From Prorocentrum cordatum (lineage: Eukaryota; Sar; Dinophyceae; Prorocentrales; Prorocentraceae), in NCBI GenBank assembly GCA_963575745.1, contig CAUYUJ010002113.1, positions 462,501 to 526,500 of the forward strand: 64,000 nucleotides of DNA, in the 5' to 3' direction. Both the position numbers and the translations under genes were made by a program. The notes under the pieces were generated by a model. It saw only the letters and a program-made list of their open reading frames with translations, was not told the DNA's origin and made no database searches. Below, one piece after another: positions 23,401 through 27,178 of the stretch; within the stretch, counting starts at the first letter, position 1; each line of letters opens with the position of its first letter.

Positions 23401-26400
23401 ATGACCTCGTCGGCCCTCGGAGCCTTCTGACCCCGACCATTCGTTCTGAACCTCACGAGCCTACGTGACCCGATTAGCACAATGACCCTTTATGAGTCCG
23501 GCCCATGAATCTCACGAGCCCTGTGAGACGACCCGCTGTGGGCGGCCCGAGAGCCAGTGGCTTCTGTGATGCAAAGGACCCGTGCGAGCCTCCACGCCCA
23601 AATAAGCCCATCAGCCCGAGGAGCCCTCTGAACTCAAGTACGGCTGCGGGCTCTCGGGAACTCCTGATCCCCAGGAACCGCGCTGCCCAAAGTACCCCGC
23701 TTCCACATTCGCGCTTCGAGTTGTTGGGCCCCATTGGCGGCAGAAAGCCACTCAGACTTCTGACCCTTAGGAGCCCATGGGTCCTATCAGCCTCGTGTGC
23801 CCCAAGGGCACCATTGCTGAAACACACCGCGGTGCTGGCGACATCCAGTCGTGGCGCGCCTCGCTGGCGCCATGCAACCAAGATTTGAAAGCCGAAGCAA
23901 AGCGAGTTGGTACATTGATGTATGTGTGTATAAACGTATATGGATATGGATGTGTATGTGAATGCGTATGTGTATGTGTATATGAGTGTGTATAGGTTTA
24001 CGTCTACACTTCTGTGATATACGTATGCGTATAGGTATACGGCTATGTATATGCAAACGACGTTGTATATGCACATGTACATGTGTATGCATGTCTGTAT
24101 GCATATATGTATGTATGCATGTAATGTCGATGCATTGTTGTGTGCATGTTTGTATGCGTGTACTCATCTACGTTTGTACGTATGCATGCCTGCGCCTGTG
24201 TACATATGTATGTATGTAAATGTGTATATGTGTATGTATGGTTGCATGTATGTACGTGTGTGTCAATGTATGCATGCATGCATGTAGGTAGACATATACG
24301 TATGCATGTATGCATGTATGTGTGTAGACATGTTTGTATGTCTGATTGTGTGTATGCGTATACGTATGTATGTATGTATGCATGTATGTATGTCTGTCTG
24401 TCTGTCTGTCTGTATGTATGTATGTAGGTAGGTAGGTAGGTAGGTAGGTAGGTAGGTATGTCTGTACGCGTGAATGAGTATCTGTATGCGTGTAGGTATG
24501 AATGCATGTCTGTATGTACGGATGCATATCTGCATGTATACCTGCATGCCTGCCTGCATGTCTGCATGCATGCATGCATGTACGTATGTATGTGTCAATG
24601 CATGTAGGTATGCATGTACGTATGTATGCATACATATAAATAAATAGATCTATAGTATAATAATGTTGTGGCGGAGCTTCTGAGGGCGCGTATCTATTTG
24701 AATGTTGTGGCGGCGCTTTGGGGGGGCGCAGGAGGGGGCAACACACAAGCGCGCAAGCCGCTGCTATCGAGCCGCGTTCAACGGTCCGGGGACCCTGGTG
24801 GGCCCGCACCAAAGGTTGTTGCGGCGAAGAGTCACTCTTACATGTAGCCGAACTCAGAGCCCAATCTTCATTATAATTTCACGACTTCGAGATCCCAACC
24901 CATTCCCCAAGATCCGTTTCTTACCCTGAGTCGGTTTTCCATGGTCCCGGGGCCCGGTAAGGGCCCCCAGAGGCCGAAAGTAGCGGCAAAACGCTCGTCG
25001 TGAATTTGTCCTGGCTCGAGCGGCTGGGAACCTTGCACGTCAGCGCCAGGCTGCCGGCGCCCCCCAGGCGTGCCCCGACCGCCCGCAGCCTGTCCTGCAG
25101 GCTCGCGTCGAGCAGCCCCGCGCCTGCGAGCCCCACCTCCGCGGGCTCCGGCGGGGCCGGCATCTGGAAGCGGGCTTCCAGATTCGCGAGGTCGCCGGCC
25201 GAGAGCACGAGGAGGTCTGTGCCGAGAAACAAGCAGTCGCATCCGCATAAACTTTCGGTGGTCCACGACGAGTTCTTGGATCGGCGTTGGACCCCCCTGG
25301 CGGTCCCCCTCGGCGCCACCACTGGCGGCCTCCGCGCGCCACCAGGGAGGGGGGCGCAGCGCTGATCCAAGAGATCCGCGCGGACCTCCGACAATTTATG
25401 TGTATGACATGATTTGTTCCCCGACTGTCGGGTGCTGCTAGACATGGTCCTGGCCCAAAGTGTCCCAGCCGCTCCCGCCGCTTTAGAGCTCTGAGGTCCC
25501 CTCAGGCTAGCGAGGGGTGCTCTGGAGGCCATCTTCCCCTCCCAGGAGATCCTAGGGACACCTCGGGCCAGGGACACCTGCGGCAACACCCGATCTAGGG
25601 CGCTCGTATGCGGCTCTATCAGGGCCCAGAGGTCCTCCCAGGGGCCAAGGGCGGGCCGATGGTTGATGTCGAGGACCGTCACCACCCGCCAGCCGGCCCT
25701 CTTGTGCGCGGCCGCGGCTGCCAGAGCATTTTGCCACGCCGCGCGCGTGCTCTGGGTGATCTGAGCGGTGATGCCAGTCAGCTGCAGTACCGCCGGCCCC
25801 CCTCCAGGGGCGGGCTCCTGGAGGATCTCGGCCCAGAACGCCGCCCCGAACCAGGCAGGGTCCATGAGGCCGAACGCGGAGCGGTGGCGCTGGTACCAGA
25901 GTTTGTGCTTGGCGGGCCAGACGTGGTATATGCCCACGTCCCCCTCCTCGCGCCTCACCATGCTCAGGTTCCCCTCCCCCTTGCCTATAGGAACAGAAAA
26001 CAGTGTGAGCATGAACTTGTGGCGCTCCCCGCGGATTTCTTGGATCTGCGCTGGACACCCGGCGCGCGGAGCGCGCCAGGGGCGGTGCTGGAGGCGCCGC
26101 CAGGAGGGGGGGCCGGCGCCGATCCAGGACATCCGCGCGGTGCGCCGACTGCTTACGTTCGCGCAGTTTCTCGCTCCTCGATTGCCGTCGGGGTACGCCT
26201 GGGCCAGCAGCGAGAGGAAGTGGTCGCCCAAGGCGCCCCGGGGAACCACGGAGACCCACCGCGCCAAGTGCCCGGGCCAGCCGAGCCGGGCGAGCGCCAC
26301 GGTCACGTTCAGCTCGGCCCCGCCGGCGCTCTGCAGCCACCGCGACGCGAAGGGGCTCGGGTCGGGCCCCTCGTCGGAGTCTGGGATGTAGCGGATCATC

Positions 26401-27178: not shown

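Follow-up and report, generated by a model that had tools for sequence, protein, structure and literature searches.

The origin of introns is a long-standing question, and introners are a leading documented source of new ones. The introners of Symbiodinium microadriaticum (Gozashti et al. 2022, PMC9860276) share terminal inverted repeats and a 4-bp target duplication with the elements reported here, which we call family A. As we propose for family A, they carry the 3' splice site on the element and obtain the 5' splice site from the duplication. The likeness is one of description: in family A, the terminal inverted repeats are about 65 bp long and most copies lie outside recognised genes. PMC9860276 does not report homology between introners beyond the same genus.

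In Prorocentrum cordatum itself, introns are enriched in introner elements, defined by inverted repeats at intron ends and accompanied by short direct repeats (Dougan et al. 2023, PMC10666404). Those elements, from the same species as ours, were detected through a pattern of inverted repeats of 8-20 nt and direct repeats of 3-5 nt close to the ends of introns, whereas family A is a sequence family; the available portions of PMC10666404 name no sequence family of P. cordatum introners. A pattern search for introners was also used in PMC10522408. Introners as a kind are already known in P. cordatum, and family A joins them. More widely, the dinoflagellate introners of Roy et al. 2023, as summarised in PMC11453091, are, like family A, transposon-derived introns, with many families per genome and recent activity; that summary covers five dinoflagellate genomes and credits Polarella glacialis with 15 families, each comprising at least 100 introns. 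Finally, Amoebophrya introner elements (PMC7789003) have inverted repeats at intron ends and direct repeats across the joint, and in these respects resemble intron 5 of the gene described below. They were defined among introns that lack canonical splice sites, whereas intron 2 of that gene is of the GC-AG type.

A PfkB kinase gene of seven exons

The window, by which we mean the whole stretch of 64,000 nucleotides of P. cordatum DNA that was analysed, has a GC content of 60.4%; the published value for the assembly is 59.7% (PMC10666404). A Pfam scan of the window names a PfkB carbohydrate kinase (26.7 bits against a cut-off of 25.8), and homologues likewise support a kinase on the minus strand, in agreement with the sugar kinase proposed in an earlier reading made from the letters alone (hereafter the sequence-only reading). 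For three of the four weakest homologues, the name given by the source is 2-dehydro-3-deoxygluconokinase. A PDB sequence search with the typed peptide yielded no match, nor did Rfam over the window at gathering thresholds.

Two proteins define the exons. P0001 is a PfkB-kinase protein, 95% identical, from a 1232-bp contig of a close relative. Because the window gene spans more than 13 kb, that contig is too short to hold the introns, and we infer that it is a transcript. P0002 is a protein listed as Prorocentrum cordatum, with exon matches to the window kinase. Mapped back on the window, the two give seven exons on the minus strand, running from 27178 to 13589; the extent of 25032..27178 first assigned to the gene had cut it short.

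27050..27178, minus strand: kinase exon 1, as in the P. cordatum model P0002
26186..26402, minus strand: kinase exon 2, by protein mapping
25595..25984, minus strand: kinase exon 3, by protein mapping
25032..25216, minus strand: kinase exon 4, by protein mapping
19283..19325, minus strand: kinase exon 5, by protein mapping
17742..17962, minus strand: kinase exon 6, by protein mapping
13589..13672, minus strand: kinase exon 7, where the P0001 match ends

Intron 2 coincides with one element

The clearest case is the second intron, whose parts are as follows.

25985..26185, minus strand: intron 2, GC-AG, 201 nt, made up of a family-A element and a single copy of the target duplication, with the junction peptide as in P0001 and P0002
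26182..26185, minus strand: GCAA, donor-side copy of the 4-bp target duplication, which gives the GC donor
26116..26181, minus strand: family-A terminal inverted repeat, donor-side arm
25986..26051, plus strand: family-A terminal inverted repeat, acceptor-side arm
25981..25984, minus strand: GCAA, acceptor-side copy of the 4-bp target duplication, at the start of exon 3

Intron 2 is absent exactly from P0001 and P0002, leaving YPDGKGEGNL, and in the alignment these two and six further proteins read YP[D/N]-G(K), or nearly so, at the window's insertion point. At the level of proteins and models, the product that removal of intron 2 from the mRNA would leave is seen both in P0001, from the close relative, and in P0002, the gene model of the species. 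Six joints would yield P0001's peptide; only one, GC-AG at 25985-26185, has accepted dinucleotides. This replaces the 177-nt intron at 25980-26156 of the sequence-only reading, whose supposed GT donor at 26156 sits within the element. That intron 2 is almost wholly one element was rightly seen, although the 147-bp limits proposed for it (26010-26156) are too short: the inverted repeats reach past them to both ends of the intron, and GCAA flanks both sides. Similarly, the CATAAA...TTCTTGGATC ends are a genuine inverted repeat, but form merely the inner part of a longer terminal inverted repeat of about 65 bp. Intron ends and element ends are therefore the same, with nothing left over besides the 4-bp target copy. 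Read as its reverse complement, the acceptor-side arm finishes in a pyrimidine tract and TATA, and the next base completes TATAG. The intron strand folds as a single end-to-end hairpin (-101.2 kcal/mol, z -5.27), as any long inverted repeat would by construction.

Intron 3 combines two elements

The third intron holds a further copy of family A beside an unrelated repeat, element B.

25217..25594, minus strand: intron 3, element B followed by the second family-A element, 378 nt, with ambiguous boundary dinucleotides
25425..25594, minus strand: element B, with inverted termini starting TCGGGTG[T/C]TGC
25217..25424, minus strand: family-A copy 2, ending in CACAG
27198..27372, minus strand: element B again (about 69% identity, E 5e-6), a short way upstream of exon 1

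The second copy of family A reported in intron 3 is present, at 25217-25424, but it shares the intron with element B. Element B makes up the 5' part and the family-A copy the 3' part, ending at the acceptor, such that intron and family-A copy coincide at the 3' end only. An exact joint would be AT-AG. Within 75 nt there are 24 in-frame canonical choices, of which the nearest three lose 3 residues or add 10 or 11, the addition of 11 coming with GT-AG. In the P0002 peptide as read, exon 3 ends at CTA, giving GA-AG, and the kinase frame is left after SAL. The P0002 gene model departs from the kinase frame after intron 3, so that about the last third of the protein, towards the C-terminus, is something other than kinase sequence. 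A TCG start is common to element B, the intron-5 repeat described below, and the donor-side end of several family-A copies. Perhaps element B, the intron-5 repeat, and family A belong to one transposase group.

Family A in the window and in the genome

Two more copies lie elsewhere in the window.

11024..11203, no strand assigned: family-A copy 3, with the acceptor motif at both ends and no gene recognised around it
58005..58124, minus strand: family-A copy 4, short, 120 bp, with one arm at E 1.7e-4 and no gene recognised around it

The three related inverted-repeat copies of the sequence-only reading, in intron 2, in intron 3, and near 11 kb, are all real: the intron-2 copy matches the intron-3 copy with E 1.2e-12 and the 11-kb copy with E 2.6e-8. 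The lone copy placed at 11053-11178 truly extends over 11024-11203, and the fourth copy, at 58005-58124, had been overlooked. The intron-2 and intron-3 copies are self-complementary, and both arms of copies 3 and 4 were detected. Copy 3 is flanked by a 7-bp direct repeat, AGGACGA, at 11016-11022 and 11206-11212. We considered copy 3 as an intron of a plus-strand gene with an acidic tail, which a GA-AG joint and the 7-bp repeat would allow; scans found no coding evidence for such a gene, and we rejected the idea.

To look beyond the window, we sampled 17 stretches of 10 kb (170 kb, of which 5.1 kb is N), drawn from five contigs of the assembly to which it belongs. In the first 13 stretches, a model of the window's eight arms finds 5 paired copies. 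An 18-arm model, in which the outer limits of some arms were set by eye and which does not contain the copies of sampled stretches L033 and L034, yields 7 paired copies, together with 1 lone arm, over the full 17. Reversed sequence, run with the 18-arm model only, gives 0 matches at E<0.1, so the search has turned up more copies, beyond chance. All seven were new to the model that first detected them (5 for the eight-arm model, 2 for the 18-arm model). The L033 copy is the weakest, its arms scoring E 5e-4 and 2e-5. The family-A consensus arm, from the arm model, reads ...gaggAacaaaaaa...CAtAAACATAAACTtTtGGcGcTCCgCGCGGATTTCTTGGATC; the termini of the family are TCGARGAG on one side and a pyrimidine tract with YAG on the other. 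A 16-mer of the inner arm also matched 18 contigs in IMG/VR; the 20 match rows inspected are only 16-30 nt long, and we dismiss them as chance.

Family A has the attributes of a miniature inverted-repeat transposable element (MITE): it is short, has terminal inverted repeats (about 65 bp), occurs in many copies, and leaves no room for a transposase. Copies measure mostly 180-209 bp, with one of 120 bp. In the sample, paired copies occur about once per 24 kb. If this is representative, a rough extrapolation to the 4.15-Gb assembly (PMC10666404) gives about 2 x 10^5 paired copies, with a Poisson range of 0.7-3.6 x 10^5 for a count of 7. Whole-element identity averages 0.65 (range 0.40-0.81), and most family-A copies therefore look old.

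Copies lying mostly outside introns had been named in advance as an observation that would count against the introner idea, and this is partly what we find: by crude scans, 2 of the 11 paired copies sit in recognised introns, both of the kinase, and 9 have no recognised gene around them. The scans around those 9 are weak. Specifically, the coding scan was trained on the kinase gene alone and detects nearly only that gene in the window, and for sampled stretches L032-L035 an ORF listing alone was used. Introns in P. cordatum average 4709 bp and genes 24,462 bp (PMC10666404), so some of the 9 may lie within long introns.

A built-in acceptor motif and a duplicated target

We defined the acceptor motif as YAG after at least 10 pyrimidines in 14, no more than 6 nt from the terminus (the end of the arm model), and read outwards. 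It occurs at 10 of 23 arm ends, compared with 3.5% of random positions. Requiring 9 of 14 pyrimidines gives 11 of 23 ends versus 7.0%, and requiring 11 of 14 gives 5 of 23 versus 1.25%. The arm ends are homologous, so the motif counts as one shared feature of the family and not as 10 independent events. At the 9/14 threshold, 8 of the 11 paired copies have the motif at one end only, copy 3 has it at both, the lone arm has it, and both copies in sampled stretch L021 lack it. The motif is also present in copies with no recognised gene around them; only in introns 2 and 3 does the evidence support that it serves as an acceptor.

In 4 of 9 paired copies, the 4-mer that follows the AG is found again at the opposite end, in a test that left out the two L021 copies, which have no acceptor motif, and that was devised after the element ends had been seen. 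The null means are 0.505 and 0.567; none of 2000 copy swaps and 0.1% of 5000 random 4-mer draws reach 4. In three copies the 4-mer abuts the terminus (GCAA in intron 2, GCCT in sampled stretch L034, and GGAG in L019). In copy 3, the match lies a few bases off the terminus, and from its other end, which was not counted, there is none. The remaining 5 of 9 copies, the intron-3 copy among them, show no matching 4-mer. A cruder test for target duplication on 9 copies, based on the longest word shared near the ends, gave no excess over its control. Both GCAA and GCCT begin with GC, the commonest donor in P. cordatum, where donors are GC (51.4%), GT (24.7%), and GA (23.8%) and 79.7% of acceptors are AGG (PMC10666404). 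The prevalence of AGG fits the AG|GCAA joint of intron 2.

Intron 5 and the possible removal of other inverted repeats

Intron 5 is bounded by inverted repeats of another kind.

17963..19282, minus strand: intron 5, 1320 nt, its edges marked by a 17-nt inverted repeat, TCGGAGGGCACCA[C/A]CTG

The repeat is matched at 16 of 17 positions and starts no more than 4 nt from the exons; 0 of 500 shuffles were as good. Its flanks, TCTAT on the left and TCCGT on the right, are perhaps a decayed duplication. Exact removal of the intron restores RWS, kept by all seven homologues aligned there (P0001 and P0003-P0008). None of the four exact joints has GT-AG, GC-AG, or GA-AG, in a search whose peptide had V, as in the window, at a position where P0001 has M. 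Of the canonical alternatives, the nearest (GC-AG) reads LQL-LGALR-S instead of LQL-RW-S, and LQL-LGALR-S is found in 0 of the 7 homologues aligned over the joint (P0001 and P0003-P0008). Introns of the Amoebophrya type combine an inverted repeat at the ends with the lack of GT-AG, GC-AG, or GA-AG. Intron 2, being GC-AG, falls outside that type, and intron 5 would belong to it only if its joint is exact.

Tentatively, and with more doubt than belief, we raise the idea that P. cordatum can rid its mRNA of inverted-repeat insertions even if these provide no usable splice site. The loss of frame in P0002 after intron 3 is as expected if the annotation pipeline could not represent such introns. 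Were the idea true, P. cordatum would harbor many hidden hairpin-bounded introns, like those of Amoebophrya.

How family A may make introns

We think it likely that family A is a MITE that works as an introner in P. cordatum, with an acceptor of its own and a donor derived from the target. In this scheme, a miniature inverted-repeat DNA transposon with terminal inverted repeats of about 65 bp, and no room for a transposase, would be moved by a transposase supplied in trans. In most copies one terminus is a pyrimidine tract followed by YAG, such that the element brings a 3' splice site with it. Insertion duplicates about 4 bp of target, and duplicated bases that start with a dinoflagellate donor, as does GCAA in intron 2, would provide the 5' splice site. 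Splicing that starts at the first target copy and ends at the AG of the element would then restore the coding sequence exactly. Presumably there was no intron 2 before the insertion, when the empty site would read GACGGCAAGGGG, and the spliceosome presumably removes the intron in the sequenced strain. The introner idea of the sequence-only reading survives insofar as a non-autonomous inverted-repeat DNA element became an intron, its ends coinciding with those of the intron and its target duplicated. The mechanism is reversed: it is the 3' splice site that would come from the element and the 5' splice site from the target duplication.

Family A might instead be an ordinary MITE that settled in older introns without making them. 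The 9 of 11 paired copies unassigned to a gene would suit that account, as would the intron-3 copy that adjoins the unrelated element B. We judge it unlikely, however, in view of an intron 2 that consists of the element and a 4-bp target copy with no remainder, and of an acceptor motif at one end even in copies without a recognised gene. The element's own GT at 26156 serving as donor, with an intron at 25980-26156, has next to no chance of being right. GTAAGC is indeed present there and the frame is open, but this joint would add NRGARNCAN, found in 0 of 8 aligned proteins (P0001-P0008), and drop the GK of P0001 and P0002, and the family consensus at that place is CATAAA and not GTAAG.

A further route is removal directed by the hairpin without canonical splice sites, as has been discussed for the non-canonical introns of Amoebophrya and the nonconventional introns of euglenids. 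Intron 2 is one end-to-end hairpin, a 17-nt inverted repeat bounds intron 5, whose exact joint lacks canonical dinucleotides, and intron 3 would be AT-AG if exact, all of which speak for such a route. Yet intron 2 has no need of it, since GC-AG is the commonest type in P. cordatum; an inverted repeat folds by construction; and introns 3 and 5 have in-frame canonical alternatives, albeit with changed residues. We regard the hairpin route as very improbable for family A.

Implications

An element that probably brings its own acceptor and borrows its donor can be compared in three settings: within coding sequence (intron 2), beside element B (intron 3), and where no gene is recognised. Most copies across all three keep the ready-made 3' splice site. 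Family A could thus separate two ideas, namely, that the splice site evolved by way of the transposon or that it was selected after insertion into genes. It also ties the family to the odd splice rules of dinoflagellates, with their GC and GA donors and AGG acceptors.

Other repeats and a sampled reading frame

The 11-bp sequence GCAGAAGGTGG spans each of the two splice joints of intron 6 (13673-17741, GT-AG) as a direct repeat and is found nowhere else in the window; a tandem duplication, or the duplication of a large target, would leave such a pattern. A tandem array at 37043-38673 has a 150-bp unit, several copies of which are 99-100% identical to the reference. A 229-nt repeat is present in two inverted copies, 32224-32452 and 57616-57844, which are 93% complementary and lie 25 kb apart. 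A dispersed repeat whose translation contains STPNRPL-ADR is found at about 26550-26747, in intron 1, and at 59480-59660. Finally, positions 371-721 of sampled stretch L030 form one uninterrupted frame that reads like what we take to be ribosomal protein S26.
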